Positions 2,595 to 19,792 of a stretch of 26,712 nt of DNA are shown piece after piece. A model generated the notes under the pieces. That model made no database searches. It had not been told where the DNA came from and saw nothing but the letters and a program-made list of their open reading frames with translations. This DNA is from Treponema sp. UBA4319. Its GTDB lineage: Bacteria > Spirochaetota > Spirochaetia > Treponematales > Treponemataceae. Positions within the stretch are counted from its first letter, which is position 1. The number at the start of each line of letters is the position of its first letter. Position numbers and translations under genes: made by a program. The DNA is taken from contig DGUD01000217.1 in the NCBI GenBank assembly GCA_002393865.1, positions 1 to 26,712 on the forward strand, written 5' to 3'.

Positions 2595-3746
2595 ATGAGA
2601 GCAACAAAAGCCGTTATCCACCTGCAGAATCTGAGGGACAACATTTCCGCGATACGGGCGGAGCTTGCGCCCGGCACAAAGATGTGCGTCGCGGTAAAAG
2701 CAGACGCATACGGACACGGTGCTGTCCGCTGCGCGCAGGCAGCCGCAGAGGCTGGCGCGGATGCGCTTGCTGTCGCCACTCCGGAGGAAGGCATCGCGCT
2801 GCGCGAGGCCTCCATCACAAAGCCTATCCTTATGCTCAGTCTCTGTGCGCCGGAGGAAATTCCCGACGTCGTGCACCACAATATCACGCCCCTTGTCTTT
2901 GACGAGGAGTACATCGCATTGTTCGCCGCGGAAGCTGAGAAAGCGGAGCGCACCCCCTACCCCGTGCATCTCGCGCTTGATACCGGTATGGGAAGAATCG
3001 GCGTCCTTCCGGAGGATGCGGCGCGCATGGCAAAGGCAATCGTCAGCACAAAGTCGCTCGTTCTAGGCGGCATGGGGACGCACTGTGCGGTAAGCGACAG
3101 CCTTGCGCCGGAAAATCAGGAATTCACCGCATGGCAGTTCTCCCGCTTTATGCAGGCGGTCAACGCGGTGCAGCAGGCCGGGATTCAACCCGGCATCCGC
3201 CATTTTGCCAATTCCGCCGTCACCCTTGCCAGGCCGGACATGCACCTTGACATGGTACGTCCGGGAATCATCGCCTACGGCTATTACCCCGACGACATCA
3301 GCGCCAGCTACCTGCATTCCATCGCGCGGCCGGCGGAGCTGCGTCCCGTGATGACGCTTGAGACGGAAGTCTGTGCCATCCGCCCGTTCAAAAAAGGCCA
3401 GAGCGTCGGCTACGGGCGCACCTGGACGGCGGCAGCGGACACCGACATCGCCGTGCTGCCCATCGGCTACGGGGACGGTTTCTTGCGCCGCTTTGCCGCA
3501 GGCGGCATCCAGGTCGCTATCCACGGCAAGGCATATCCCGTCCGCGGGCGTATCTGCATGGATCAGTGCATGGTGGACATCGGGAAGAACAGCGGTATAC
3601 GGCGCTGGGACAAAGCTGTCATCTTCGGCACAAAAGAAGACGGCGCGCTCCAGAGCGCAGACGATGTCGCCCGGCTGAGCGGCACCATCTCCTACGAAAT
3701 CACCAGCTGCATCTCGCCCCGCGTGGAGCGTGTCTTCACTGATTGA
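2595..3746 (+). CDS. alr: Alanine racemase
   Basis: A 383-residue PLP-dependent racemase that interconverts L- and D-alanine for peptidoglycan synthesis in the cytoplasm. VAVKADAYGHG carries the PLP-binding lysine (Lys35). The second catalytic base is the tyrosine of SVGYGRTW (Tyr273). RGRICMDQCMVDIG is the conserved C-terminal domain block. Length is typical of the family. The start at 2595 was chosen because GAGG precedes it by 7 bases, because the protein then begins at the normal point of the family, and because a promoter sits at 2534-2561; the longer frame from 2526 would begin upstream of that promoter. The TGA stop (3744-3746) is shared with the -35 box of the next promoter. Confidence 0.95.
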   Translation: MRATKAVIHLQNLRDNISAIRAELAPGTKMCVAVKADAYGHGAVRCAQAAAEAGADALAVATPEEGIALREASITKPILMLSLCAPEEIPDVVHHNITPLVFDEEYIALFAAEAEKAERTPYPVHLALDTGMGRIGVLPEDAARMAKAIVSTKSLVLGGMGTHCAVSDSLAPENQEFTAWQFSRFMQAVNAVQQAGIQPGIRHFANSAVTLARPDMHLDMVRPGIIAYGYYPDDISASYLHSIARPAELRPVMTLETEVCAIRPFKKGQSVGYGRTWTAAADTDIAVLPIGYGDGFLRRFAAGGIQVAIHGKAYPVRGRICMDQCMVDIGKNSGIRRWDKAVIFGTKEDGALQSADDVARLSGTISYEITSCISPRVERVFTD

Positions 3747-3771
3747 CAGGACAAAATCTTCTCTATAAAAT
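3743..3771 (+). promoter_or_regulatory. Promoter of the FkbH-ACP-MBOAT cassette
   Basis: TTGACA (3743-3748) overlaps the alr stop codon. A 17-base spacer leads to TAAAAT (3766-3771). The -35 box is a perfect consensus. Transcription would start near 3778, just before the long hairpin at 3784-3826. Confidence 0.7.
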
Positions 3772-3783
3772 AGAAGAAAAGCG

Positions 3784-3826
3784 GAGGAATCCGTGCCGGA
3801 AAGCGAATTTCCGGCACGGATTCCTC
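3784..3826 (+). promoter_or_regulatory. Perfect 19-bp inverted repeat in the leader of the acylation cassette
   Basis: The arms 3784-3802 and 3808-3826 are perfectly complementary over 19 bp with a 5-base loop (GCGAA). The hairpin begins about 6 bases after the predicted transcription start and ends before the AGAGGA ribosome site at 3831-3836. There is no T-tract after it on the plus strand, so it is not a standard terminator for alr, although it could still stop or slow read-through. A role as a 5'-end mRNA stabiliser, an attenuator or a protein-binding dyad is inference. Confidence 0.7.
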
Positions 3827-3848: not shown

Positions 3849-5576
3849 ATGCAGAATATAAATCAGCTTAAGAAATTAGCAAAAGCGATTCCTGCGGACA
3901 GCAAGCCCGACGCGACACTCGCCGTGCTGGGAGACAGCGCGACGCAGCTGCTCGCCACGGCAATCCGCGGCTACGCGTATTCCCGGAACATGCACATCGA
4001 CGTCTACGAGGCTGAGTATGACCAGATTCTTCCTGAAATCGTGAATCCTGATTCCGGCCTCTACCAGCGGAAGCCTGACTATACATTTATATATATGTCC
4101 GCGGAGAAGCTGCATCAGGCGTTCTGCCAGACAGCCCCTGCGGAACGGGAATCCTTTGCGGAGCGGATGATTGCCCAGATTTGCGAGCGCTGGGAGACTA
4201 TCCTGTCCAGAATGCAGACCCGGATTATACAGCTGAACTTTGTGGAGAACGACGACCGCGTCTTTGGCAGTCTGGGCGCCAAGCTGCCGGCCTCGTACAT
4301 CTTCCAGCTGCGGAAACTGAATTTCATGCTGATGGAGCGCGCGGCCGCAAACGCAAGCGTCAGCATAGCCGATTTGTCCCGCATTCAGAACGAATACGGC
4401 CGCGAAAAACTTTATGCGGCGCCCTACTGGTACTCTGCGCGCCTTGCCGTCTCAATAGATATGATTCCGGCTGCGGCAAAGGCTGTGGTTGACATCATGG
4501 AAGCCTTGAGCGGGCGGATCAAGAAATGCGTCATCTGCGATCTGGACAACACGCTCTGGGGCGGCGTCATCGGGGACGACGGTCTGGACAAAATCCAGAT
4601 CGGGGAGCTCGGCAGCGGCAGGGCGTTCTCCGACTTCCAGACATGGCTCAAAGAGCTGAAAAACCGCGGCATACTCCTTGCGGTCTGCTCCAAAAACGAC
4701 GAGGCAACAGCAAAGGAGCCCTTCCTGAAGCATCCCGACATGGTGCTGCGGCTCGACGACTTTGCCGTGTTCATCGCGAACTGGGAGGACAAGGCATCGA
4801 ATATCCGCCGTATCCAGAGTATCCTGAATATCGGCATGGACTCCATGGTATTCCTTGACGACAATCCCTTTGAGCGGAACCTTGTCCGCCAGATGATACC
4901 TGAAATCTGCGTTCCTGAGCTGCCGGAAGACCCGTCCTGCTATCTGGGATTCCTGCAGGCAGAGAACCTGTTTGAGACGGCTTCTTTTGCGGCGGCCGAT
5001 ACGGAGCGGACTGCACAGTATCAGGCCGAAGCTCGTCGGGTACAGCTCAGGCAGAGCTTCAGCTCGATAGACGATTACCTGAAGAGCCTTGCCATGACGG
5101 GGGCGGCGCGACCCTTCGACGCGTTCAGCACCCCCCGCATCGCGCAGCTTACCCAGCGCTCCAACCAGTTCAACCTGCGCACGGTGCGCTACAGCGAGGC
5201 TGATATCGCGGCCATCGCAGCCTCGGACAAGTATGTGACTATGTACGTCACGCTCCGCGACACGTTCGGCGACCACGGGCTCATCTCCGTCGTCATCATG
5301 GAGAAGCAGGGCGATGCGCTCTTTGTGGATACGTGGCTTATGAGCTGCCGCGTGCTCAAGCGTACCGTGGAGGAATTCATCGTGAACAAAATGCTTTCCA
5401 CGGCAAAAAAGCTCGGATTCTCGCGGGTGCTCGGCGAGTACCTCCCCACGCAGAAGAACGCGATGGTCAAGGATATCTACGAGACGATGGGCTTTGCCCG
5501 CACGGACGCGACGCATTTTGAGGCGGACGTGGCAAGCTTTGTGCCCAGAAAGACCTTTATCGCGGAGGAAGCATGA
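3849..5576 (+). CDS. FkbH-like HAD-IIIC acyl-loading enzyme (putative glyceryl-ACP synthase)
   Basis: A 575-residue protein of the FkbH type. The N-terminal third has an SGNH-like start (GDS at residues 28-30). The central HAD phosphatase domain carries DLDNT at 231-235 followed by LWGGVIGDDG, the hallmark of the HAD-IIIC/FkbH group, with KNDEATA and FLDDNPFER as later HAD motifs. The last ~150 residues look like the GNAT-type domain found in this family (DTFGDHGLISVV, TWLMSCRVLKR). Characterised FkbH proteins take 1,3-bisphosphoglycerate and load a D-glyceryl group onto an acyl carrier protein thiol. An ACP gene lies 1.2 kb downstream in the same operon, which fits. The actual C3 or hydroxyacyl substrate is not determined by sequence. 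It is the first gene of a six-gene operon and overlaps the next by 4 bases (ATGA). Confidence 0.9.
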   Translation: MQNINQLKKLAKAIPADSKPDATLAVLGDSATQLLATAIRGYAYSRNMHIDVYEAEYDQILPEIVNPDSGLYQRKPDYTFIYMSAEKLHQAFCQTAPAERESFAERMIAQICERWETILSRMQTRIIQLNFVENDDRVFGSLGAKLPASYIFQLRKLNFMLMERAAANASVSIADLSRIQNEYGREKLYAAPYWYSARLAVSIDMIPAAAKAVVDIMEALSGRIKKCVICDLDNTLWGGVIGDDGLDKIQIGELGSGRAFSDFQTWLKELKNRGILLAVCSKNDEATAKEPFLKHPDMVLRLDDFAVFIANWEDKASNIRRIQSILNIGMDSMVFLDDNPFERNLVRQMIPEICVPELPEDPSCYLGFLQAENLFETASFAAADTERTAQYQAEARRVQLRQSFSSIDDYLKSLAMTGAARPFDAFSTPRIAQLTQRSNQFNLRTVRYSEADIAAIAASDKYVTMYVTLRDTFGDHGLISVVIMEKQGDALFVDTWLMSCRVLKRTVEEFIVNKMLSTAKKLGFSRVLGEYLPTQKNAMVKDIYETMGFARTDATHFEADVASFVPRKTFIAEEA

Positions 5577-6001
5577 ATCACTATACATTCCCGGAACTCA
5601 AAGAGGGGCTGACGGAAAGCTTTGACGTGACCGTTACAGCCGGCATGATGGAACAATTCCTTGCGCTGACGGGCGACACGAACCCCATGCATACCGACGC
5701 CGCGTATGCAAAGGCGCACGGCGGCTACAACGACCGCATCGTGTACGGTATGCTCACCGCCTCTTTTCTAAGCACGCTTGGCGGCGTCTACCTTCCCGGC
5801 GAGCATTGCCTCATCCATTCCGTCGAGACTACCTTTCCCAAGCCGGTATTCGCCGGAGACACGCTCACGGTGAGCGGCACCGTAAAGCGCCTTGACGAGC
5901 GCTTCTCTCAGGCGGAGCTTGCGGTCAAAATCGTAAACCAGAAGGGCGAGAAAGTCCTGCGCGGCAAAATGATGGTAGGAGTGCTCGGCAATGGAGAATA
6001 A
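5573..6001 (+). CDS. MaoC-like hotdog-fold (R)-specific hydratase/dehydratase
   Basis: A 142-residue single hotdog domain. The stretch GDTNPMHTD contains Asp35 and His40 with the D-x4-H spacing of the catalytic pair of (R)-specific enoyl-CoA hydratases (PhaJ/MaoC group). These enzymes add water to, or remove it from, acyl-CoA or acyl-ACP thioesters. Length is typical of a stand-alone MaoC protein. It starts at ATG 5573, overlapping the FkbH-like stop by 4 bases, and ends 11 bases inside the SDR gene, so translational coupling on both sides is likely. With ACP, FkbH and SDR genes around it, the substrate is probably a carrier-bound hydroxyacyl group (inference). An in vivo role other than hydration, such as thioesterase activity, is possible because hotdog folds are versatile. 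Confidence 0.88.
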   Translation: MNHYTFPELKEGLTESFDVTVTAGMMEQFLALTGDTNPMHTDAAYAKAHGGYNDRIVYGMLTASFLSTLGGVYLPGEHCLIHSVETTFPKPVFAGDTLTVSGTVKRLDERFSQAELAVKIVNQKGEKVLRGKMMVGVLGNGE

Positions 6002-6719
6002 GACGCTGCTCGTCATCGGGGCCTCCAGCGAAGTAGGCCGGGCGCTCATCCGGAAGGTCGCGCCGAACTACAGCCGTATTTATGCGCACTACCATTCCTC
6101 CGGCGAGGCGCTGGACGGGCTGAAGGCGGCGCTCGGCGGAAAACTCGTGCCTCTGCAGGCAAATCTGATGGACGCAGCCGCCACAGCCGCGCTGACTGCC
6201 CGCATTCAGGGCGACGGCGTGCTGCCGAATCATATCGTCCATCTGGCGGCACCCCGCTGCGAGCAGAAGCGCTTTCACCAGACGGATGAGGAGGATTTCT
6301 CTGCGGCGCTCACCTGCTCCGTCATCGCGTTTTCTTCTATTATAAAGCCTTTCATCAGCAAAATGGGAAAAAACGGCCGGGGCAAAATCGTGGCGATGCT
6401 CACCGCCTATACGGAAGGCGTTCCGCCAAAATTCATCTCAGCCTATGTGACGGCAAAGTACGCGCTGCTCGGTCTGGTGCGCTCACTGGCTGCAGAGTAT
6501 GCGCCAAAAGGCGTGTGCGTCAACGCCGTGTCGCCGGAGATGATAGAGACACGCTTTCTTTCCTCCATGCCGGAGCTTGCGCTGGAGCAGGCGCGGGAAT
6601 CAAGTATCATGGGAAGGTTGCTGACACCGGACGATGTGGTTCCCACATTCGAATATCTTTTGTCGGACGCATCTGATTTTGTGACGGGACAGAACGTGCT
6701 CGTCACAGGCGTAAAATAG
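5991..6719 (+). CDS. Short-chain dehydrogenase/reductase, divergent FabG-like
   Basis: A 242-residue Rossmann-fold SDR. The nucleotide-binding turn reads GASSEVG (residues 10-16) and the active site YVTAK gives Tyr152 and Lys156. VSPEMIETRF and DFVTGQNVLVTG are the usual C-terminal SDR blocks. By hand alignment, the catalytic Ser expected 13 residues before Tyr152 is Ala139 (preceded by Thr138), and the structural Asn is replaced by Ser110. It is therefore either a reductase with an altered proton relay or a binding protein with weak activity. Family members reduce 3-ketoacyl-ACP or oxidise hydroxyacyl groups. It overlaps the MaoC-like gene by 11 bases and precedes the ACP gene by 29 bases. 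Confidence 0.88.
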   Translation: MENKTLLVIGASSEVGRALIRKVAPNYSRIYAHYHSSGEALDGLKAALGGKLVPLQANLMDAAATAALTARIQGDGVLPNHIVHLAAPRCEQKRFHQTDEEDFSAALTCSVIAFSSIIKPFISKMGKNGRGKIVAMLTAYTEGVPPKFISAYVTAKYALLGLVRSLAAEYAPKGVCVNAVSPEMIETRFLSSMPELALEQARESSIMGRLLTPDDVVPTFEYLLSDASDFVTGQNVLVTGVK

Positions 6720-6748
6720 CAGACATCAACTGTTTTCAAGGAGTTTTT

Positions 6749-6991
6749 ATGACACGGCAGGAAATCAACCAGAAACTGAACGGGGTATTTCAGGAGGTCT
6801 TTGACGACGATACCATCACCGTAGCCGATGAAACCACTGCAAAGGATATCGAGGACTGGGACAGCCTTGCCCACCTTACGCTGGTCGGCTCAATAGAGGA
6901 TGCCTTCGGCATCAAATTTACGCTGGGCGAAATCAACGGCTTTAAAAACGTGGGCGAGATGATGGATGCCATGGAAAAGAAGCTTTCCTGA
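6749..6991 (+). CDS. Acyl carrier protein dedicated to the cassette
   Basis: An 80-residue acidic four-helix carrier protein. The DSL motif in DWDSLAHL places the phosphopantetheine attachment at Ser39. The helix after it (VGSIEDAFGIKFT) is the canonical ACP helix III region. AGGAG stands 7-8 bases before the ATG, giving a strong ribosome site, as expected for a stoichiometrically needed carrier. Its position between a loading enzyme (FkbH-like) and an MBOAT transferase parallels DltC between DltA and DltB in D-alanylation operons. No phosphopantetheinyl transferase is in the window, so activation must rely on one encoded elsewhere. It is unlikely to be the housekeeping AcpP, because the usual fab genes are absent and the motif block is not AcpP-like (DSLAHL rather than DSLDTVEL). 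Confidence 0.93.
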   Translation: MTRQEINQKLNGVFQEVFDDDTITVADETTAKDIEDWDSLAHLTLVGSIEDAFGIKFTLGEINGFKNVGEMMDAMEKKLS

Positions 6992-7007
6992 CGGAGCCTG
7001 CTGAACA

Positions 7008-8486
7008 ATGGCCTTCTCATCCCTCGTATTCCTGCTCATTTTTTTCCCGCTCGTCATAGGCGCATACCACATTGTTCCTCAGCGGCTCAAAAATGTCTTC
7101 CTGCTTCTGGCGTCCCTCTTCTTCTATGCGTGGGGCGGATTCCATGCGCTGCCGCTTTTTGTCGCAAGCATGGTGGCAAATTACTGCTTTGCCCTGCTAA
7201 TCGGGAAATACCTGCAGCGGGAACGGCTCTGCAGGCTAATCGTTGTCTTTGCGATAGCAGCAAATGTCGCCCTCCTCGTCGCGTTTAAATATCTTGGTTT
7301 TATCTTAAAATGTGTAAATGCAGCTACAGGACTTAGTCTGCCAGCTCCCGGCTGGGCGCTTCCGCTCGGCATATCCTTTTTTACCTTTTCGGCGCTTTCC
7401 TATATCCTTGACGTGTATTTCGGGGCAGCAAAAGCGGAGAAGAATTTTTTTCATGTGGCCTTGTACCTTGCATTTTTCCCGAAGCTGGTCTCCGGCCCCA
7501 TCATGCAATGGTCTGCGTTCCGTTCCCAGCTGGATTCCCGGAGCTGCACCGTGGAGCAGTTCTCCGCCGGGCTGAAGCGCTTCATCGTCGGGCTGGCCAA
7601 GAAACTTGTCGTCGCTGACTCGCTCGCAAGCTTTGCCGACTTTATTTTTGACAGGAACGATTTTGCCTCCGTCTCGGCCCTGCTCGCATGGTTCGGGGTG
7701 ATTGTCTATATTGTCCAGCTGTACTACGACTTCTCCGGCTATTCGGATATGGCGGTGGGCCTCGGCAAGATGCTCGGCTTTACGGTGGACGAGAATTTCA
7801 ACTACCCCTTTGCCTCCAAGCGCATCGCCGAATACTGGGGCCGCTGGCACATCACGCTCGGCACGTGGGTAAAGCACTACATTTACACGCCGGTGTTCAG
7901 GGCGCTCAACGTCAGGAGCAAGCGTACGGGCAAAAAGCGGGATGCAAAATACTGCGACTACGCGGCACTGCTGGTCTCCTGGTGCATCATCGGGCCATGG
8001 CATGGGGCAGGATTCCATTACCTCGCCTACGGGCTCTTCTACTGCGCGTTCATCATCATCGAGCGCGTCTGGGACAACTACAAGAAGAAGCGGGCAAAGG
8101 CCGGAAAGCCGCTACGCTGGAATCCGGCCATCGCGGCCTGCTGCTCGCACCTCTATTTCTTCGTCGTCCTGTGCATCGGGCAAATGCTTTTCCGTGCTAA
8201 TTCCCTTACGCTCGCATACAAGCAGCTGCGTGCGATGTTCGGGCTGGGGGCAAGCGGTTTTGCGAATGCTACCGATGCATTCTATGTGAGCACCTACCTG
8301 CCGCTTATCCTGATGGGAATCATCGGCGGCCTGCCGCTCATTCCCTTCCTCCGGAAAAAGCTCGCCTCGTGGGACGGAACGCTCCGTGCAGTACTGAGCG
8401 CGCTCCTGCACATAGCCCTGCTCCTGCTCTCCGTCGCCTTTGCCGTCGGCAACACGTACAAAGCGTTCATCTACTTCAATTTCTAG
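7008..8486 (+). CDS. MBOAT-family membrane O-acyltransferase (AlgI/DltB-like)
   Basis: A 492-residue polytopic membrane protein with about ten hydrophobic segments. YWGRWHITLGTWVKHYIYTP (around residues 277-296) is the MBOAT signature, with His281. GPWHGAGFHYL holds the invariant catalytic His332. AlgI and DltB are inner-membrane proteins that pass an acyl group from a cytoplasmic donor across the membrane for attachment to an exported polymer. Here the adjacent ACP gene suggests an acyl-ACP donor, as DltC is for DltB. The RSKRTGKKRD loop after the first motif is positively charged and probably cytoplasmic, suitable for docking an acidic ACP (inference). The gene starts 16 bases after the ACP gene and ends 8 bases before its DHHW partner. 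Confidence 0.93.
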   Translation: MAFSSLVFLLIFFPLVIGAYHIVPQRLKNVFLLLASLFFYAWGGFHALPLFVASMVANYCFALLIGKYLQRERLCRLIVVFAIAANVALLVAFKYLGFILKCVNAATGLSLPAPGWALPLGISFFTFSALSYILDVYFGAAKAEKNFFHVALYLAFFPKLVSGPIMQWSAFRSQLDSRSCTVEQFSAGLKRFIVGLAKKLVVADSLASFADFIFDRNDFASVSALLAWFGVIVYIVQLYYDFSGYSDMAVGLGKMLGFTVDENFNYPFASKRIAEYWGRWHITLGTWVKHYIYTPVFRALNVRSKRTGKKRDAKYCDYAALLVSWCIIGPWHGAGFHYLAYGLFYCAFIIIERVWDNYKKKRAKAGKPLRWNPAIAACCSHLYFFVVLCIGQMLFRANSLTLAYKQLRAMFGLGASGFANATDAFYVSTYLPLILMGIIGGLPLIPFLRKKLASWDGTLRAVLSALLHIALLLLSVAFAVGNTYKAFIYFNF

Positions 8487-8494
8487 GGGCTGCC

Positions 8495-9664
8495 ATGAAA
8501 AAGACCATACAGATAGCTTTTGTCATTTTAAGCTTAGTTATATTATTTATATTGTTTGCCGCAGCGGACAGAAAGCCGGGCAGAATCTCCAGCCGGGAGA
8601 AACGGGCGCTCGCCCCCTATCCTACTACGGAACGTTTCCTGAGCTCCGGGTACCGGACGGCTTTCTCGGCATGGCTTGAGGACAACCTCTGGCTCAGGGA
8701 CGGCTTTATCGACGCCAAGAATTTCGTCACAAGACATGTGCTCCGCCTCAAGCCGCTCTCGGACGACGTAGCGTATGGCAAAGACGGATGGCTTTTCTAC
8801 AAGCTGCAGAGCAACATACAGATTGCAAGCGGCGAATACCGCCTGAGTGAAAACCAGCTCAAAGAAATCGCAGAAACCCAGCAGCGCATCAGCGATTTCT
8901 ATAAAGAACGCGGCAAAACCTACATGCTCATCATCCATCCGAGCAAAGTGAGCGTGTATCCCGAATATCTCTACGGAAACTATACGGTGCGGGAGACCCC
9001 GGCAGACCAGATATATGCCAGCCTGCGCTCGCAGAGCGACGTCTTTACCGTTGACCTGAAATCAGCCCTACTTGCGCACAAGGATGAAGGTCTGCTCTAC
9101 TACAAGAACGATACGCATTGGACGCCGCTGGGCGCCTATTATGTCTACCGGACAATCCTTGAGGCTCTGAACGGGCGGGGGCTCACGGACTTCTCAGCTG
9201 TTCCCGTCGAGACCTTCCCCAATACAATCCGCAATACGGACAGAGGCGATTTGGACGACATGCTTGGAAATCGTGGTAAAAATCGTAATAATTATACATT
9301 TACTGATATTAAATTTGCAGTTCATTCAAATGTAAATCAGTCCGCATACTATGAGCACCTTGCCCCGCTGCTGGCAGAACGCTTCTCGCATGTGCCGCAG
9401 ACCTTTGTGCGCGAAAATCCGCAGGGAAAGGGAAACATGGTGATATACGCGGACTCGCAGTTCGCGCAGGACAAGCAGATTGTCACGCTGCTCGCGGAGC
9501 ATTTCCACGCTTGCGTCTACATCTGGAGCCCTGACGAGCAGGATCCTTCGCTTGCGGATGCGGCGGACGCGGATATCGTCATGTACGCGCTCTCAGAACG
9601 ATTCGCCGGAAGGGAATTCCTGGTACAGGTACCATTCGATATTCCTGCCGGCAGCGGAGACTGA
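8495..9664 (+). CDS. DHHW/AlgX-like SGNH protein, surface O-acylation partner
   Basis: A 389-residue protein with one N-terminal membrane anchor (about residues 5-24) and an extracytoplasmic SGNH-like domain. DTHWTPLGAYY (Asp206, His208) is the AlgJ/AlgX/DHHW motif that supplies the catalytic Asp and His. ADSQFAQD places the nucleophile candidate at Ser321, where the family normally has GDS. In alginate and related systems these proteins complete transfer of the acyl group to the polysaccharide in the periplasm, next to the MBOAT protein. The start at 8495 was chosen because AGGGG precedes it by a few bases and the protein then begins with a proper membrane anchor; a longer in-frame extension to 8369 would overlap the MBOAT gene. 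A conspicuous AT-rich stretch (about 9267-9340) encodes an Asn-rich loop. Confidence 0.88.
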   Translation: MKKTIQIAFVILSLVILFILFAAADRKPGRISSREKRALAPYPTTERFLSSGYRTAFSAWLEDNLWLRDGFIDAKNFVTRHVLRLKPLSDDVAYGKDGWLFYKLQSNIQIASGEYRLSENQLKEIAETQQRISDFYKERGKTYMLIIHPSKVSVYPEYLYGNYTVRETPADQIYASLRSQSDVFTVDLKSALLAHKDEGLLYYKNDTHWTPLGAYYVYRTILEALNGRGLTDFSAVPVETFPNTIRNTDRGDLDDMLGNRGKNRNNYTFTDIKFAVHSNVNQSAYYEHLAPLLAERFSHVPQTFVRENPQGKGNMVIYADSQFAQDKQIVTLLAEHFHACVYIWSPDEQDPSLADAADADIVMYALSERFAGREFLVQVPFDIPAGSGD

Positions 9665-13476: not shown

Positions 13477-14289
13477 CTAAAAGCGGCGGAGCGGGCATTC
13501 CGACAGGCGTATTTTTCCGCAGAGCTCCTGCATACCCGTCGCGACGAAATAATCGGAGAGCACCTCGGCTGTGACCCGCGCCTGAGGACCTATGCGGATT
13601 TCCTCAAAGAGCTCCGCATAGTCCCTGCCAAGCTGGCTGCATACCGCCCGCAGGTTCAGCACATAATACTTCTTGATGTTCGTCTCCTCCACAAAGAAAC
13701 GCGGGGCTCCAAGATGCAGCTCCCGCTCGGAGGGCAAGGATACAAGGCGGTATTCCTTCTCGCTGATAAAGGACGGATGCTTGAAAAGCGGGGAACTGGA
13801 CACAAGACGGTTGAAGGTCTCCGTGATTCTCTCCTGGGACGAGGGGCTACGGACGAGCTCCGCCAGCTCCTGCACAATACCGAGGTCATCGCAGCTCCGG
13901 GAATAGTTCACCTTGCACAACGGGGCATGTCCTGTCTCGCCAATGCGGGAAAGCAGCTCTTTGTTGAACGCTATGCATACGCCCATTCCGTTCTTTGCGT
14001 AGCGCGACCACTGCGCGGCATCGTCGGCGTATTCGCTGAAAGAGGCAGCAAAGCTGGAGAGCTTGTCAAAATCTTTCATATTCTCGCCGAACAGGGCTTC
14101 CAGCCGGGCAAATTCCTCCGGCTCCAGAAGTTTCTTTACGGCACGCTGCAGCTCCAATATGAAATACTGCATCTCCTGGCTGTCATTCATGCGGCGGAGG
14201 TTCCACAACCATATCTCGCCGTTCGTGATGATGCCACGCATCGCGTTGAAGTCTGTGTAATGATATAGTCTGGTGATGTCTTGAGGCAT
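13477..14289 (-). CDS. DUF2971 family protein
   Basis: A 270-residue protein beginning LYHYTDFNAMRGIITNGEIWLWNLRRMNDSQEM, which matches the start of DUF2971 proteins (pattern LYHYT...L..I...G.LW......NDP.E). Later blocks (FAASFSEYADDAAQWSRYAKNGMGVCIAF) also fit that family. The biochemical role is not known, and I assign none. No signal peptide or membrane span is seen. The ATG is preceded by GAGGAGGG, a strong ribosome site. It lies 116 bases downstream of the YegP-like gene on the same strand and may share its promoter. The following alpha-galactosidase gene has its own promoter. Confidence 0.8.
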   Translation of the reverse strand: MPQDITRLYHYTDFNAMRGIITNGEIWLWNLRRMNDSQEMQYFILELQRAVKKLLEPEEFARLEALFGENMKDFDKLSSFAASFSEYADDAAQWSRYAKNGMGVCIAFNKELLSRIGETGHAPLCKVNYSRSCDDLGIVQELAELVRSPSSQERITETFNRLVSSSPLFKHPSFISEKEYRLVSLPSERELHLGAPRFFVEETNIKKYYVLNLRAVCSQLGRDYAELFEEIRIGPQARVTAEVLSDYFVATGMQELCGKIRLSECPLRRF

Positions 14290-14961: not shown

Positions 14962-15870
14962 TCAATAGTCGTTCACTTTTGAAACCGTCTCCTCCGACAA
15001 CCAGCGCTCATAAGTCCATGCGCTTATGCTGTACCGGTAATTCAGGCTCTCCAGCATAGAGCGCTCCGCGCTGCCGGAGGCCGGCCCGGCCGAAAAAGAA
15101 GGAATCACGACATAGGAGCCGTCCTTCTCGTATATGCGGAAGCGGGCAAGCGCACCGTTGCCGAAATCTCTTGCGAGCACATTCGTCTCCGGCAAACCCT
15201 CTCGCGGAGCGATATTCAGCAGCAGCCCCCGGCGGAGGAAGGATTCTGATGCCGCACGATCAGCGCCGGTCAGCGCCTGAGGGTACACAAAGGGGTCTGC
15301 CCAAAAGGATTCGTCCGCGGAAAGATAGGATGAAATCGAATCATCAATCTCATAGGCGGTTGTTTTTGTCCACGTGCGGAAAAAAATGCGCCGGGTCAGG
15401 GCATCGCTGCCGCCAAAAAACAACTGGGACACAATGCTGTGCCTCTCATCCCAGAAGCTGAGCACGGCAGCGTCGGCATCTTCGATACCAAGCGGCTTCC
15501 ATGCGGAGACATCGTCGGCCTTTGTGTATACGGTCGTGATTTTTTGTGCCGCGGTAAAAAGATTCGCCACGCTCTGCGCGTCGGCAGGCCAGCGGTAGCT
15601 GTCCGCAGACAGGGAGCTTGTCCCTGACCACAGAGTCCCGTGGCGCTGCAAGGTGACGGTCGTTCTCCCCGTGGCGACAGATTCGTCTGGCACCGAGATA
15701 GTGATGGAGCTGACATCTCCCGCCCGGTTCGGATTCAGCAGCGCAGTCTGCTCGGAGCGCACGCTGTTTTTCCGTGAGAGCGGGGCAAAAGAAATGACGA
15801 GCACAAGCAGCAGTACCGCGTCAATCAGATAGAACAGCAGGATTCCCTGTCTTGCAGATAGTTTTCTCAT
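14962..15870 (-). CDS. DUF4340 domain protein, partner of the GldF/GldG-like transporter
   Basis: A 302-residue protein with one N-terminal membrane anchor (about residues 8-28, ILLFYLIDAVLLLVLVISF) and a long extracytoplasmic part. That part has the layout of DUF4340 proteins: short beta-rich repeats with WxxP-type and FGG motifs (SQLFFGGSDALTRRIFFRTW). DUF4340 genes commonly follow GldG-type ABC auxiliary genes, and this one does: its start lies 50 bases inside the 3' end of the preceding gene. GGAGAAGG lies just before the ATG. It is probably the last subunit of an envelope ABC complex. No enzymatic residues are visible. Confidence 0.75.
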   Translation of the reverse strand: MRKLSARQGILLFYLIDAVLLLVLVISFAPLSRKNSVRSEQTALLNPNRAGDVSSITISVPDESVATGRTTVTLQRHGTLWSGTSSLSADSYRWPADAQSVANLFTAAQKITTVYTKADDVSAWKPLGIEDADAAVLSFWDERHSIVSQLFFGGSDALTRRIFFRTWTKTTAYEIDDSISSYLSADESFWADPFVYPQALTGADRAASESFLRRGLLLNIAPREGLPETNVLARDFGNGALARFRIYEKDGSYVVIPSFSAGPASGSAERSMLESLNYRYSISAWTYERWLSEETVSKVNDY

Positions 15871-18118
15871 TGTACCTTCTCCGCCGCAAAGCAGCCAGAA
15901 TATATAAAAATGATAATATCACAATTATAATAACACAGTCAAAAAAGAGCGCGCGCCGCGCAGCAGGAAGGAAGTCGTCCCCGCTCACTTTATAGAGAGA
16001 GGTATTCCGTATACCCTTATGCTTCAGCGAGACAAGCTCCTGATTGCCGCTGACCATGAGCAGGCAGTCCACAATAAAATCAAGGCTGCGCATATCAAGA
16101 CCGCTGCTCCCGGAGCTGTAGGCAATCCCGAAATCGCAGGCCGCATACTGGTCGCCCAGCACATAGACTGAAGGGGCAAGGCTTGCTCCGCCAGCGCGAA
16201 TCGGCGCCAGCGAGACACAGACCGGGAACGAGCCCGTCTCTGCCCCGTCAGGAGCTGACTTTGACGCGGCGAAGGGGTTCGTGATAAAGCTGTCTCCGGC
16301 GGGCGGCTCCTGCCACGCAGAGGGGCTGGTAAGCAGCACGGCCGATGCGGAAAAGCCGGCGCCGGCTGCAGCATCGTCATCCACGTCAATCGCGCATGGC
16401 CAGAACATCGTCATTCCTTCGGGCGCATACTCCTGGCGGGGAAGCTGCGGCCAGAGCGAATAGCCGACATATTCGGTCTTTGCGGACGTACCGCTCTGAA
16501 GGGCAAGCAGAAAGCAGAAGCTGTCGGCGCTCAGCGTGTCCTTGAAAAGAATCCCGAACTGCCGCAGCATGGCCACCATGCTGTCGCCGGATCCGGCGTC
16601 TAAAAGCCCAGCCTGCCGTTGCACAGACCAGTCCTCAAAGAGATTGACTGTATATGGCTGGGTGGCTACGACAAGCTTTCCCCCTTTCTGGATAAAATAG
16701 GCGAAGGCGTCCGCGTCCTCCCCTTCCAGCGCGGAAGATCCGAGCAGCAGGACGGGCACAGAATCATACAGGGTGAACACATTCTCATGTCCGGCCTCAT
16801 TCCGCCGGGACGGCAGGCTGCTCTGCAGCACGGTAAAGCCCTGGCTTTCCAGATAGGGGCAGACATAGCGGTAGTAGTCGGAAAGCTCCAGACCATTCCC
16901 GCTCAGCACCTGCACCGCACGGATGGTTCCGCGCACAAGATGCTGCACGCGTCCCGTCAGGTCATATTCCAGAGAGGACGTTCCGAGCACAAAGGGAATG
17001 ATTTCCGTACGGTCAAGGTAGGAGAGCGCTACAGCGGAATAGACCGTCATGTATGCATCAGCCCCCTGTCCTTCCGTCTTGAGCTGCCTTCCCTCAATAC
17101 CCGCCTGCGCCAGACGCTGCTCCACATGCTGCCTGGAAGGATCGGCAAGCTCGTATGAGATACGCGTGCTGCAGGCCGCATAGGCGCGGAGAAAATCATC
17201 CACGTCCCGCACCTGCGGGTACAGGGAAGTGAGCACGCCGCTCCGGTAGTAGGTAATGGAAAGCGGCTCCTCCAGCTCGTCCAGCAGGGAACGGCTGTAC
17301 GCTGTTACCGTAAAAGTCTTTGCGTCGCTCACGTCGATGCGGGCATACAGGCGCGATGCATCCACGGCACAGAGCAGGCAGGCGGCGGCCAGCAGGGCGA
17401 GCTTCTTCCAGAACAGCAGCCCGCGCCTTCCGCGGCGGTATTCCATGACGGCAATGGTGGCCAGCCAGAAAAATACAATCGCCGCAAGATAGAATCCTAT
17501 ATCCCTCGTGTCGAGGATGCCTTTCCCTGCGGCATCAAAATGCCACGCAAAGGAGATGGCCCGGCAGCAGGCGGCAGTCCACGGGGAAAGCCTGGCGTAC
17601 GAGGCGGCAAGATGCGCTCCGCAAACGGCGGCAAGCACTGCGGCGGACACAAAAAAAGCCACGCCCGCAGAAGCTATCAGCTCCGACAGGAACACGCAGA
17701 GCGAGACCGCCGCCGCAAGGTAGAGCAGGAGCCCTGCATACGCGCAGCAGACGGACGCCAGCTCCACATCCCCAAAGAACTGCACGGTAAGCGGCACGAC
17801 GCATGTCAGCAGCAGGGCGCCGGAGGCAGCGGCAAGCAACGCCAGTATCTTTGCCAGAGGAATGACGGCAGCGGGAAACGGCAGGCTATAAGAGGATTGG
17901 CCGGAGGGGACTGCTGCGGCAAGCACCGGGACATAGAGCACGGCGGCATAGGGAATGGCGGAAAAAAAACGGTGCAGCTCCGTCGTGCCCGTGTCAGAAA
18001 AAAACTGCTGGCCGAAAAAAAAGCGGAGCACGGCATACAGCACAAAGAGCGCCGAGCTGACGAAGACTGACGGGCGGATGCAGAGGCCGAACAGGTAGCG
18101 TCGGAACAGCACCCTCAT
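15821..18118 (-). CDS. ABC-2-type permease fused to a GldG-like auxiliary domain
   Basis: A 765-residue protein combining two modules. Residues 1 to about 225 hold roughly six hydrophobic segments of an ABC-2 permease (GldF-like). After a further membrane segment near 235-255 comes a large extracytoplasmic region (about 260-720) with the GldG/ABC_transp_aux pattern: FTVTAYSRSLLDELEEPLSITYYRS, then YELADPS and IPFVLGTSSLEYDLT. A last membrane span (about 725-750) ends in a basic tail (ALRRRRY). In gliding Bacteroidetes GldF and GldG are separate proteins; here they are one chain. Spirochaetes without gliding also carry such transporters, and the substrate is unknown. It overlaps the ATPase gene by 4 bases and the DUF4340 gene by 50, a strongly coupled operon. 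Confidence 0.85.
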   Translation of the reverse strand: MRVLFRRYLFGLCIRPSVFVSSALFVLYAVLRFFFGQQFFSDTGTTELHRFFSAIPYAAVLYVPVLAAAVPSGQSSYSLPFPAAVIPLAKILALLAAASGALLLTCVVPLTVQFFGDVELASVCCAYAGLLLYLAAAVSLCVFLSELIASAGVAFFVSAAVLAAVCGAHLAASYARLSPWTAACCRAISFAWHFDAAGKGILDTRDIGFYLAAIVFFWLATIAVMEYRRGRRGLLFWKKLALLAAACLLCAVDASRLYARIDVSDAKTFTVTAYSRSLLDELEEPLSITYYRSGVLTSLYPQVRDVDDFLRAYAACSTRISYELADPSRQHVEQRLAQAGIEGRQLKTEGQGADAYMTVYSAVALSYLDRTEIIPFVLGTSSLEYDLTGRVQHLVRGTIRAVQVLSGNGLELSDYYRYVCPYLESQGFTVLQSSLPSRRNEAGHENVFTLYDSVPVLLLGSSALEGEDADAFAYFIQKGGKLVVATQPYTVNLFEDWSVQRQAGLLDAGSGDSMVAMLRQFGILFKDTLSADSFCFLLALQSGTSAKTEYVGYSLWPQLPRQEYAPEGMTMFWPCAIDVDDDAAAGAGFSASAVLLTSPSAWQEPPAGDSFITNPFAASKSAPDGAETGSFPVCVSLAPIRAGGASLAPSVYVLGDQYAACDFGIAYSSGSSGLDMRSLDFIVDCLLMVSGNQELVSLKHKGIRNTSLYKVSGDDFLPAARRALFFDCVIIIVILSFLYILAALRRRRYNEKTICKTGNPAVLSD

Positions 18119-18882
18119 TTCCTTTCCTCCGCTTCCACGACGGACAGGAACGCCTCCTCCAGCGAAGCGCAGCCGGTCTGGCGCAGCAGGCTTTCTGCGC
18201 TACCAAAGGCCGCAATCCGTCCGGCGGCAAGAATGTATATGCTGCCGCACAATGATTCCGCCTCCTCTATGCGGTGCGTGGAGAATATGACGCACTTGCT
18301 CTGCGCCAGCTCCGTGAGCAGCTGCCGTACCTGCGCCAGCTGCGCAGGGTCAAGTCCTGAGGAAAATTCGTCCAGCACAAGCACGGGGCAGCCTGAGGCT
18401 ATAGCGGCAGCCAAAGAGGTGCGCTGCGCATAACCTTTGGAGAGCTGGCCGATTCGTGAGCCCAGCACATCCAGCAGGCCGCAGCGTGCCGCAGCCGACA
18501 AAACGGAGGCAGCTATGTCTTCTTTGGGGACGCCATGCGCGGCAGCGGCAAAATACAACGTCTCCCGCACGGAGAGCCGCTTGTCCAGCAGCGGAAGCTC
18601 CGGCACAGAGGCGACAAGCGGCCGGATACTGTCCGCGTCTGTCCTGCCGCAGACATCCACGCTTCCCTCCGACGGGTAATGGATTCCGCAGACAGCTTTG
18701 AGCAGCGTAGACTTTCCGGCGCCGTTCAGGCCGAGGATTCCCGTGACAGTCCCTGCGGAAGCCGAGAAATCGACGCCGCGCAGGGCGGCCGTGCGATGCC
18801 TGCCCCCGCCGTAGATTTTGACAAGGGAGCTGACGCGCACAAAGGGCAGCGGGGCGCCCTTCCCTTTACCGTCATTCCTCAT
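18115..18882 (-). CDS. ABC transporter ATP-binding protein (GldA-like)
   Basis: A 255-residue ABC ATPase. Walker A is GLNGAGKST (residues 51-59), the signature is LSKGYAQR (147-154), Walker B is VLVLDE (167-172), and the switch histidine is in FSTHRIEEAE. It has the single-domain size and the LSKGYxQR signature typical of ABC-2 exporters. The start at 18882 was chosen because it overlaps the rnz stop by 11 bases and leaves a normal N-terminus (FVRVSSLVKIYGG). A longer frame to 18963 would extend far into rnz. With the next two genes it forms a membrane complex of ATPase, permease/GldG and DUF4340 protein. Confidence 0.92.
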   Translation of the reverse strand: MRNDGKGKGAPLPFVRVSSLVKIYGGGRHRTAALRGVDFSASAGTVTGILGLNGAGKSTLLKAVCGIHYPSEGSVDVCGRTDADSIRPLVASVPELPLLDKRLSVRETLYFAAAAHGVPKEDIAASVLSAAARCGLLDVLGSRIGQLSKGYAQRTSLAAAIASGCPVLVLDEFSSGLDPAQLAQVRQLLTELAQSKCVIFSTHRIEEAESLCGSIYILAAGRIAAFGSAESLLRQTGCASLEEAFLSVVEAEERK

Positions 18883-19792
18883 AGGGAATCTCAAAATGCA
18901 TGCGGTCGCGCGTGAGCTCGGCGGCGGGGAACACCTCCCGTGCCTGACGGAGCAGGACATCAAGGTCGCGATCCGTATAACGGGGGCTGTAATGTATCAT
19001 CGCCATGCGCTTTACCTGCGCATCCAGCGCGATGCGGGCAGCCTGACGGGCTGTCATGTGCTTTTTCTCCTTTGCCTGGTCGGCGCAATCATCGGTAAAC
19101 ATTCCCTCGCAGATGAGCAGGTCGCTGCCCTTCACCTCTTTTGCGATGGAAGGCAGATAGAGGGTGTCCGTCACAAAACTGAACTTGCGGCCGCTGCGCG
19201 GCTTGCCGACCACCTGCTCAGGCAGCACCTCCACGCCTTCCTCGTTGACAACTTTCTGCCCGTGCTGCAGTTTGCCCCAGAGCGGACCGCGGGGAACATG
19301 GAGGCGGGCCGCTTCCTCCGGGTTGAATTCACCGGGGCGGTCAAGCTCCTCCAGCGTATATCCGACGCAGGTCTTGGTGTGCTCCAGCGGGAATGCCCGG
19401 ACATAAAAGTCCTTCTCGCCGTAGACCGTGCACGGGGCGGTGATTTCTTTGACCACGATGGGATAGTTGATGTACATATCAAGAACCTTCCGGCTGGTCT
19501 CTATATACTCCTCGATTTTGGGCGGCCCAAAGATATACAGCGGCTCCGTCCGGTCAACCTGCGCGGAAAGCATCAGTATGCCGGGGAGTCCCGTCACATG
19601 GTCTGCGTGGGTATGGGAGACAAAAATAGCGTTTATTTTTTTCCATTTCAGATTGAGTCGGCGCAGAGAGACCTGCGTCCCCTCTCCGCCGTCAAAAAGG
19701 AACAAATCTCCCTCGCGGCGCAGCAGCACAGATGTCAGATGCCGGTACGGCAAAGGCATCATGCCGCCGCAGCCCAATACAAAAGCTTCCAT
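18872..19792 (-). CDS. rnz: Ribonuclease Z (tRNA 3'-processing endonuclease)
   Basis: A 306-residue metallo-beta-lactamase-fold nuclease that removes 3' trailers from tRNA precursors. It begins MEAFVLGCGGMMPLPYRHLTS, the usual opening of RNase Z. The zinc motif HTHADH occupies residues 60-65, and HYSPRYTD supplies a late metal ligand. The ATG at 19792 has AGGGG 7 bases upstream. The ATG at 19798 is too close to it, and a frame to 19849 would run into the terminator-like hairpin. It is the first gene of an operon with a GldF/GldG-like transporter, with which it has no obvious functional link. A hairpin with a T-tract lies about 30 bases upstream, so transcription into rnz may be attenuated. 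Confidence 0.95.
   Translation of the reverse strand: MEAFVLGCGGMMPLPYRHLTSVLLRREGDLFLFDGGEGTQVSLRRLNLKWKKINAIFVSHTHADHVTGLPGILMLSAQVDRTEPLYIFGPPKIEEYIETSRKVLDMYINYPIVVKEITAPCTVYGEKDFYVRAFPLEHTKTCVGYTLEELDRPGEFNPEEAARLHVPRGPLWGKLQHGQKVVNEEGVEVLPEQVVGKPRSGRKFSFVTDTLYLPSIAKEVKGSDLLICEGMFTDDCADQAKEKKHMTARQAARIALDAQVKRMAMIHYSPRYTDRDLDVLLRQAREVFPAAELTRDRMHFEIPYEE

Follow-up and report, generated by a model that had tools for sequence, protein, structure and literature searches.

The 26,712-nucleotide stretch of Treponema sp. UBA4319 analyzed here (contig DGUD01000217.1; the window) carries a six-gene cassette that we interpret, with somewhat better than even confidence, as an operon for the carrier-dependent acylation of a surface polymer. 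In this reading an FkbH-like protein loads an acyl carrier protein (ACP), MaoC- and SDR-type enzymes tailor the bound group, and an MBOAT acyltransferase and an SGNH partner deliver it to a glycan. Recognition by hosts and phages, as well as gel properties, depends in part on the acyl groups that capsules, cell-wall polymers and gums carry, and for rare acyl decorations the responsible genes are often not known.

In the proposed mechanism, FkbH is predicted from its family to charge the phosphopantetheine of ACP Ser39 with glyceryl, 1,3-bisphosphoglycerate being the probable donor. MaoC and the SDR are best read as acting further on glyceryl-ACP before export, most simply to lactyl: MaoC might strip the 3-hydroxyl to give 2-hydroxyacryloyl- or pyruvoyl-ACP, and the SDR might reduce the 2-keto group to give lactyl-ACP, these being the weakest steps of the scheme. 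By analogy with PatA and DltX, MBOAT His332 would move the acyl group from the ACP to the enzyme's own Tyr489, in the FIYFNF motif present at its C-terminus; Ser321 of the AlgX/AlgJ-like protein, whose triad and fold are both recognizable, would accept it and pass it to a hydroxyl of a putative exported glycan.

Organization of the cassette

Six open reading frames, all on the forward strand within 3849-9664, encode FkbH, MaoC, SDR, ACP, MBOAT and AlgX/AlgJ-type SGNH proteins in that order (Table 1), and adjacent genes overlap or have 8-29 bases between them. The tight packing described in the initial annotation was borne out, with the frames at the positions given there and the family identities recovered by Pfam or NCBIfam models. 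The cassette lies between alr and folC; since these flanking genes are convergent neighbors in 23 of the 24 congeneric loci where both were found, misbinning of the contig is unlikely.

Table 1. Features of the cassette and its leader in window coordinates.
Feature	Position	Strand	Details
Promoter-like site	3743..3771	+	TTGACA-17-TAAAAT, 11/12, at end of alr; by consensus only
Perfect 19-bp hairpin, leader	3784..3826		-39.8 kcal/mol, z -7.5
FkbH-like loader, 575 aa	3849..5576	+	PF21211 205 bits, TIGR01686 307 bits
MaoC hydratase/dehydratase, 142 aa	5573..6001	+	PF01575
SDR reductase, 242 aa	5991..6719	+	PF13561
Acyl carrier protein, 80 aa	6749..6991	+	PF00550 24.7 bits (cut-off 20.8)
MBOAT acyltransferase, 492 aa	7008..8486	+	PF03062
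AlgX/AlgJ/DHHW-type SGNH acyltransferase, 389 aa from ATG at 8495	8495..9664	+	PF16822 84 bits, PF14286 36 bits

The putative FkbH loader and its carrier

The FkbH protein scores above the curated cut-offs of both of its models (27 bits for PF21211 and 147 bits for TIGR01686). In an alignment of 25 sequences the HAD-type DLDNT at 231, DD at 337-338 and, in the C-terminal part, Cys500 (MSCRV) are invariant, the last being the presumed catalytic cysteine. The ACP attachment site is Ser39 (DSL).

FkbH pathways in the literature run via glyceryl-ACP, and the characterized FkbH proteins serve polyketides. The methoxymalonyl-ACP and tetronate pathways share with the cassette an FkbH protein, a stand-alone ACP and tailoring on the carrier; they end at a polyketide synthase, whereas the cassette ends at an MBOAT/SGNH export pair. 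FkbH genes in or beside surface-glycan genes, as proposed here, are also found at a second FkbH-ACP locus of the same genome and, reportedly, in the Campylobacter cj1302 region. The second locus differs from the cassette in having a GNAT and glycosyltransferases with no MBOAT beside it, and suggests that FkbH can also supply soluble transfer.

A recurrent core with variable modules

We surveyed the best 80 of at least 525 confirmed FkbH loci, with flanks of up to 10 kb that were often ended by the contig; neighboring genes were grouped into sequence clusters, and each cluster took its function from a single member scanned with Pfam (cluster c4, which has no Pfam match, is SGNH-like by eye only). 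The gene run containing FkbH includes an ACP in 64 of these 80 best loci, an MBOAT in 46 and both in 44, and the 36 runs without MBOAT, ACP or both result partly from contig ends. The initial annotation had looked to co-occurrence of the six families in order as a check on its reading, and FkbH-MaoC-SDR-ACP-MBOAT in this order, with a small gene next that is unannotated or of ALGX type, indeed recurs within the best 80 (L021, L029 and L045), which points to more than coincidence; L084 keeps the cassette order with one added glyoxalase-like gene.

The modules beside the core vary, and include MaoC with SDR, MaoC with a split transketolase, 2-hydroxyacyl dehydratase, methyltransferase and glyoxalase-like genes; operons of this kind with different tailoring enzymes are spread over several bacterial phyla. 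Two 2-hydroxyacyl dehydratase subunits with an activator occur at L009 (by Pfam scan), L016 and L043 (both by cluster), while a methyltransferase is present in 8 and a glyoxalase-like gene in 19 of the 80 best runs. In the same 80, MaoC is accompanied by SDR, split transketolase or radical SAM genes in 20 of its 22 runs, and L037 has both SDR and transketolase. These partners suit a glyceryl or 2,3-dihydroxyacyl thioester.

A separate sample of six further above-cut-off FkbH loci in the phylum (flanks of about 1.5 kb) has an adjoining ACP at four loci and MBOAT, MaoC and SDR genes at two each; one of the six, which belongs to the same genus as the window, has the order FkbH-ACP-MaoC-SDR. From the other direction, eight of the 21 best MBOAT relatives, the first two of which are the window and its sister, match an entry among the 50 best FkbH relatives in the length of the longest contig and so probably share its contig. 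As controls, the genome's other three MBOATs have no FkbH or ACP match in the 11-15 kb around each, and 28 MBOAT loci of relatives (flanks of about 1.5 kb) gave no FkbH match and one weak ACP match (16 bits).

MaoC and SDR as proposed tailoring enzymes

The MaoC protein has its dyad (Asp35 and His40 in GDTNPMH, of the GDxNPxH pattern), and its sequence relatives include structures of R-specific enoyl-CoA hydratases. The SDR resembles FabG-type reductases and keeps Tyr152 and Lys156, with Ala139 at the canonical serine site, so that the classical Ser-Tyr-Lys set is incomplete; because alanine replaces the catalytic serine, the enzyme may be atypical or inactive. In the alignment of cassette SDRs the same site holds alanine in L022 and L026 and other residues in L045 and L051. 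A comparable set of functions is reportedly found in bryostatin BryA, where FkbH/DH/KR have been proposed to yield D-lactyl-ACP; the BryA loading module joins FkbH to dehydratase and reductase domains, where the cassette has discrete proteins and no PKS.

Within the best 80 of at least 525 loci, MaoC occurs in 22 runs, SDR in 12 and both in 11, an association with a Fisher p of 7e-7 among loci that are related and hence not independent. The 11 runs with both genes span several phyla, and this pairing, together with the same-genus locus described above and the intact Asp/His of MaoC and Tyr/Lys of the SDR, argues against the main alternative, namely that the decoration is plain glyceryl (or a simple hydroxyacyl) and that MaoC and SDR serve in regulation or proofreading or have degenerated. 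We consider this alternative unlikely, while noting that it would fit the glyceryl-ACP yielded by published FkbH pathways, the L-glycerate esters reported on gellan (a literature search for gellan transferase genes found none), the SDR without its canonical serine, and the absence of MaoC from 58 of the 80 best runs. It would also fit the sister genome, in which the MaoC body and the SDR are seemingly missing and the remaining cassette is kept; there, either MaoC-SDR is dispensable or the contig end is misassembled. The earlier prediction of a glyceryl or other short hydroxyacyl decoration is accordingly retained in part: glyceryl-ACP is kept as a presumed intermediate, and plain glyceryl as the final group is less supported in view of the 11 runs in which MaoC and SDR travel together.

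Inheritance of MaoC-SDR as a single block was not supported, as the FkbH tree requires 11 label changes (at least 10), slightly more clustered than shuffled labels (13.2). This tree, built by a quick method with no bootstrap, holds the window and 77 of the 80 loci, with L018, L054 and L059 omitted.

The MBOAT and SGNH transfer half

The catalytic residues that the initial annotation had assigned to the transfer half hold up in alignments: His332 of the MBOAT is invariant in 50 sequences, as are Phe487, Tyr489 and Phe492, and the SGNH triad Asp206/His208/Ser321 (numbering of the 389-aa form) is invariant in 33. The MBOAT terminates in FIYFNF, which matches the published FxYxxF acyl-shuttle motif; F.Y..F stands at the extreme C-terminus in 50 of the 55 loci with an MBOAT match, and in 52 of 60 MBOAT frames, among the best 80 of at least 525 FkbH loci. 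This ending, with Tyr489, is absent from the initial annotation. The MBOAT model has a pLDDT of 90.9, falling to 66 and 59 in the final two blocks, which hold the shuttle motif. Its nearest solved fold is DltB; against the DltB equivalog TIGR04091 the protein scores 172 bits, below the cut-off of 375. The SGNH protein has an N-terminal helix and a model pLDDT of 88.3, and its nearest solved folds are AlgJ (Foldseek E 1.7e-14), a DHHW protein, PatB1 and AlgX. Gaps of 16 bases separate ACP from MBOAT and 8 bases MBOAT from SGNH.

The cassette resembles the Dlt system of teichoic acid D-alanylation (DltA-DltB-DltC-DltD-DltX) in combining loader, carrier, MBOAT and SGNH genes in one operon, in the MBOAT fold, and in the acyl-Tyr shuttle motif. 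In Dlt the carrier is the acyl donor, a role that the ACP encoded next to the MBOAT may also have. The cassette differs from Dlt in having FkbH in place of the AMP-forming ligase DltA, in a shuttle motif fused to the MBOAT C-terminus rather than carried by the separate DltX microprotein, and in an SGNH protein of AlgX/AlgJ type. The dlt-like logic first suggested for the cassette therefore stands for an FkbH loader, a carrier, an MBOAT of DltB fold and an AlgJ-like SGNH; its transfer half belongs with AlgI/PatA and not with DltB plus DltX. AlgI-AlgJ/AlgX and PatA-PatB share with it an MBOAT that has the catalytic His and ends in FxYxxF, and an SGNH of AlgJ/AlgX/PatB1 fold with Ser/His/Asp. According to the 2025 PatAB paper these pairs have no carrier, evidently because acyl-CoA is the donor, whereas the cassette adds an ACP and the FkbH loader. 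In the same paper the FxYxxF shuttle is fused to MBOATs that use acyl-CoA with no carrier, and Dlt uses a carrier plus separate DltX; the present cassette has a carrier gene and a fused motif together. Since published fused-motif MBOATs use acyl-CoA, the cassette MBOAT might do so too.

An alternative is that MBOAT and SGNH carry out ordinary O-acetylation from acetyl-CoA and merely neighbor an FkbH-ACP pathway whose product is used by soluble enzymes. Fused motifs are known in MBOATs that use acetyl-CoA, the second FkbH-ACP of the genome has no MBOAT alongside, and the MBOAT tree places the window protein in a set of 17 rows (97/98 support), 13 of which lack both FkbH and ACP on their strand in the surrounding 3 kb. 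However, the MBOAT begins 16 bases after the ACP, and FkbH, ACP and MBOAT share 44 of the 80 best runs with MBOATs drawn from several distant clades, which a chance neighbor would not explain; we regard the acetyl-CoA pair as decidedly improbable.

The MBOAT tree comprises 83 rows, from frames of at least 440 aa only, each labeled by whether its strand has FkbH or ACP no more than 3 kb away. A single clade of ACP-linked MBOATs was not supported: there are 13 label changes (at least 10), which may be gains or losses, over several distant clades. Labeling instead by an ACP that starts no more than 1.5 kb away raises the count to 16 (at least 13 when judged by starred branches), with some rows mislabeled; ACP adjoins the MBOAT at L063, and at L061 the MBOAT lies inside the FkbH run.

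Fatty acyl and polyketide alternatives

A Pfam scan of the 24 window proteins found no match to a ketosynthase or an AMP-forming ligase (PF00501), in agreement with the earlier claim that ketosynthase, ligase and polyketide modules are missing. Among the best 80 of at least 525 FkbH loci (flanks of up to 10 kb), one has a ketosynthase match, 5 kb away, and two have an AMP-ligase match; the queries were the longest frames of chosen loci, none of which matched the motif patterns tried. As far as these flanks reach, the related loci do not sit in polyketide clusters, a siting that the initial annotation had raised as a point against its reading.

These counts also bear on the idea that MaoC and SDR provide a 3-hydroxyacyl group (e.g. 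3-hydroxybutyryl) from acyl-CoA or fatty-acid metabolism, with FkbH in another role. The hydratase relatives of MaoC and the FabG-like SDR would agree with it, but neither ketosynthase nor ligase is at hand in the scanned window proteins, both are rare among the 80 best related loci, and some of those loci have transketolase or 2-hydroxyacyl dehydratase modules, which are unsuited to a fatty acyl chain; we give this idea a low likelihood. A polyketide context is rejected on the ketosynthase count within the flanks covered, and a secondary-metabolite starter or extender unit, suggested by the polyketide role of characterized FkbH proteins, is barely credible.

A possible general platform

If the carrier-dependent acylation reading is true, gene order alone would predict that many bacteria of gut and rumen carry non-acetyl decorations derived from glycolysis, and MBOAT-SGNH systems would gain a carrier-protein donor plus a built-in shuttle, which are separate solutions in the 2025 PatAB paper. 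The loader-carrier-transferase core would then exemplify a widespread platform for acylation from glyceryl-ACP in which the tailoring modules can be swapped. We put forward tentatively, and with less than even confidence, that this is an undescribed general system in which FkbH-derived glyceryl-ACP passes through interchangeable modules to an MBOAT that is fed by the carrier and has the acyl-Tyr shuttle fused to it, and on to surface polymers. In such a platform MaoC with SDR might give lactyl, MaoC with split transketolase branched C5 acids, and 2-hydroxyacyl dehydratase a C3 aldehyde or 3-hydroxy acids, with an O-methyltransferase and an epimerase-like glyoxalase as further possible modules. 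MBOAT-SGNH systems would thereby have a third kind of donor in addition to DltC and acyl-CoA, and the platform would be an origin for short-acyl decorations that are as yet unassigned.

Sequence features of the leader

A single promoter for all six genes is plausible from the consensus match at the end of alr; promoter-like sites in the region number 9 against 3.9 expected, and the sister locus L075 likewise has TTGACA and an AT-rich -10-like stretch downstream of alr. Neither a tRNA nor an Rfam family reaching its gathering score is present in the window. No leader hairpin was seen in the shorter spacer of L075, and that of the window has a T-rich tail on the - strand only.

Architecture and active sites of the cassette

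Open reading frames and profile matches bear out the six tightly packed genes of the initial annotation, encoding FkbH, MaoC, SDR, ACP, MBOAT and SGNH proteins, on contig C94 of an assembly of 2.76 Mb (84% complete, 225 contigs). The FkbH and MaoC genes overlap, as do those for MaoC and the SDR; the spacings that follow are 29 (SDR-ACP), 16 (ACP-MBOAT) and 8 bases (MBOAT-SGNH). A promoter-like site lies upstream, in a region where our scan returned 9 sites against 3.9 expected, so any single site is weak evidence. The leader hairpin is terminator-like on the - strand only, and none was seen at the sister locus L075.

Features of the window outside the six cassette genes
Feature	Position	Details
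Promoter-like site	3743-3771	11/12 consensus positions
Perfect 19-bp hairpin	3784-3826	between promoter-like site and FkbH; -39.8 kcal/mol
DUF2971 protein	13480-14289	PADLOC match to candidate defence family PDC-S31 (E 2e-11)
ABC transporter genes	14962-18963	ATPase, ABC_transp_aux protein, sub-threshold DUF4340 match

The FkbH protein scores far over both family cut-offs and keeps the DLDNT and DD motifs and Cys500, all invariant in 25 aligned sequences. The MaoC motif GDTNPMH is intact, the ACP has Ser39, and the SDR has Tyr152 and Lys156, with Ala139 at the classical Ser position. The residues initially singled out in the MBOAT (His332) and the SGNH protein (Asp206, His208 and Ser321) are invariant in alignments of 50 and 33 sequences, respectively. 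AlphaFold models of these two proteins (mean pLDDT 90.9 and 88.3) have as their nearest solved folds DltB (E 1.3e-13) and AlgJ (E 1.7e-14), the latter followed by a DHHW protein, PatB1 and AlgX.

A carrier combined with a fused shuttle motif

The MBOAT ends in FIYFNF, with Phe487, Tyr489 and Phe492 invariant in 50 homologues; model confidence drops (66 and 59) over the final residues holding this motif. According to a 2025 paper on PatAB (PMC12148441), teichoic-acid D-alanylation relies on the carrier DltC together with DltX, a separate microprotein with an FxYxxF motif, whereas other MBOAT-SGNH pathways are without a carrier, evidently because acyl-CoA is their donor, and have FxYxxF fused to the MBOAT. 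Measured against that description, the cassette resembles Dlt in having a carrier but differs in fusing the motif to the MBOAT, and it shares the fused motif with the other pathways while adding a carrier. F.Y..F stands at the very C-terminus in 50 of the 55 MBOAT-bearing loci among the best 80 of at least 525 FkbH relatives. The other three MBOATs of the same genome end in FIYFRF, FIYFQF and FIYQNF, with no FkbH or ACP match in the stretches read around them; in flanks of ~1.5 kb around MBOATs of relatives, FkbH was found at 0 of 28 loci and ACP as one 16-bit match. The motif is therefore shared across the class, and it is the FkbH cassettes that come with a carrier. The architecture and dlt-like logic originally proposed are upheld, with a transfer half that is an AlgI/PatA-type fused-shuttle MBOAT and not DltB/DltX; an exported glycan would be the acceptor. 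What the data establish directly is gene content, residues, folds, linkage, modular exchange and insertion site; all of the chemistry, and the acceptor, is inference. No paper on an FkbH-ACP-MBOAT-SGNH system was found in the open-licence literature searched.

Tailoring modules in related loci

A profile scan of named GTDB genomes confirmed at least 525 FkbH relatives, the best 80 of which were taken with flanks of up to 10 kb and read as runs of same-strand genes around FkbH with gaps below 200 bases. Among these best 80, ACP occurs in 64 runs, MBOAT in 46 and both in 44; MaoC occurs in 22, a short SDR in 12 and the two together in 11, the only SDR run lacking MaoC being L005, whose contig starts 168 bases before its SDR. 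Of the 22 MaoC runs, 20 also have an SDR, a radical SAM protein or a split transketolase; the exceptions are L026 (SDR 1 kb further on) and L048 (methyltransferase). A glyoxalase-like gene is present in 19 runs, a methyltransferase in 8, a radical SAM gene in 5, and transketolase N and C halves in 5, all with MaoC. Ketosynthase matches were seen at 1 of the 80 loci and AMP-ligase matches at 2.

Co-occurrence in the window's order, proposed as a check in the initial annotation, was found exactly in L021, L029 (Prevotella) and L045 (Bacteroidales), where the final gene comes from a cluster without a Pfam match. L084 (Synergistales) has this order with an added glyoxalase-like gene and an ALGX match in the final gene.

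The five cassettes that pair MaoC with transketolase halves (L017, L023, L030, L035 and L037, some with an aldo/keto reductase) possibly perform a two-carbon extension of a pyruvoyl-ACP; L037 is also one of the 11 MaoC-SDR runs. Three runs (L009, L016 and L043) place GcvH, lipoamide dehydrogenase, lipoate ligase, two 2-hydroxyglutaryl-CoA-dehydratase-type subunits and an activator beside FkbH-ACP, with MBOAT too in L009 (4817-15527) and L016. Radical dehydration of glyceryl-ACP is a possible role for this set.

The delivered group

A glyceryl thioester would suit these modules, offering its 2-OH to a 2-hydroxyacyl dehydratase, its 3-OH to MaoC, either to a methyltransferase and its C2 centre to an epimerase. 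In the window, loss of the 3-OH from glyceryl-ACP would give the enol of pyruvoyl-ACP, which the SDR could reduce to lactyl-ACP. In bryostatin biosynthesis, lactate is proposed to arise on a loading module that combines FkbH with a dehydratase and a ketoreductase. The main argument against the lactyl step at the level of sequence is the absent canonical Ser of the SDR; other cassette SDRs mostly have Ser there, with Ala in L022 and L026 and a different residue in L045 and L051. We consider a reworked glyceryl, lactyl first, more likely to be delivered than glyceryl itself. Gellan bears an L-glycerate ester (PMC9104527); reaching L-glycerate from the D-glyceryl of glycolysis would need inversion at C2, which would suit the glyoxalase-like gene.

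Exchange of parts and insertion site

On an 83-row MBOAT tree, linkage to FkbH or ACP (within 3 kb) needs 13 changes, at least 10 by well-supported branches, and the window's MBOAT falls in a set of 17 rows, 13 of them unlinked. On the FkbH tree the MaoC-SDR label needs 11 changes (at least 10) against 13.2 for shuffled labels, so MaoC-SDR loci are hardly clustered; changes on both trees may be gains or losses. In either case exchange of parts is frequent, and different MBOAT lineages are found in cassettes of the same logic.

A second sample, of 296 genomes of the phylum and not picked for similarity to the FkbH of the window, shows the same pattern as the best 80 loci, albeit in few cases. 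FkbH exceeds the family cut-off in 7 genomes at eight loci, of which two belong to the window genome itself. Within flanks of ~1.5 kb, the other six read MaoC-FkbH-ACP-MBOAT (L162), SDR-FkbH-ACP-MBOAT (L163), FkbH-ACP-MaoC-SDR as far as the SDR (L165, in the congener G341), FkbH beside a weak ACP match (L164) and FkbH alone (L161 and L166).

The FkbH of the window shares 81% identity with its counterpart in the MAG uncultured Spirochaetaceae RUG14872 (L075); outside the lineage, the nearest relatives bearing an organism name come from an Oscillospiraceae MAG (68%). The other 58 of 59 first-sample genomes, 35 of them congeners, gave no relative at E <= 1e-30. In the later, partly different sample, two other congeners, G320 and G341, had FkbH matches that passed the family cut-off. 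Within the genus the gene is therefore rare but not unique.

The genes alr and folC flank the cassette in the window. Of 29 congeneric loci examined, 24 yielded both genes, and at 23 of these they are convergent neighbours; L107 has a different orientation, and L087 and L093 show bigger apparent gaps and match alr in part. In RUG14872 the two flanking genes are on separate contigs, alr ahead of FkbH and folC behind the SGNH gene. The first of these contigs carries FkbH, approximately the first 18 codons of MaoC and ACP before its end; the second begins at ACP, with MBOAT and SGNH next. The ~18-codon remnant was the sole match when the genome was searched for MaoC. RUG14872 looks to have lost the MaoC-SDR module, most of MaoC and the whole SDR (L075:11700-11894 and L123/L127), and kept the core, although the junction is close to a contig end and may reflect the assembly. 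The break between the contigs lies at ACP, which would fit the coexistence of two variants.

Other loci of the genome

A second FkbH-ACP pair (L128, G000:C162:5684-14762) has LicD, GNAT, glyoxalase-like, capsule-type glycosyltransferase, GT2 and MptE-like neighbours, and may serve to transfer glyceryl to a glycan sugar by a soluble route. The ABC transporter genes of the window resemble gliding-type (Gld) ABC modules. Contig C153 (L132) holds two ketosynthase-like genes, small weak ACP matches, an SDR and AMP-ligase matches, possibly a second acyl-synthesis cluster.
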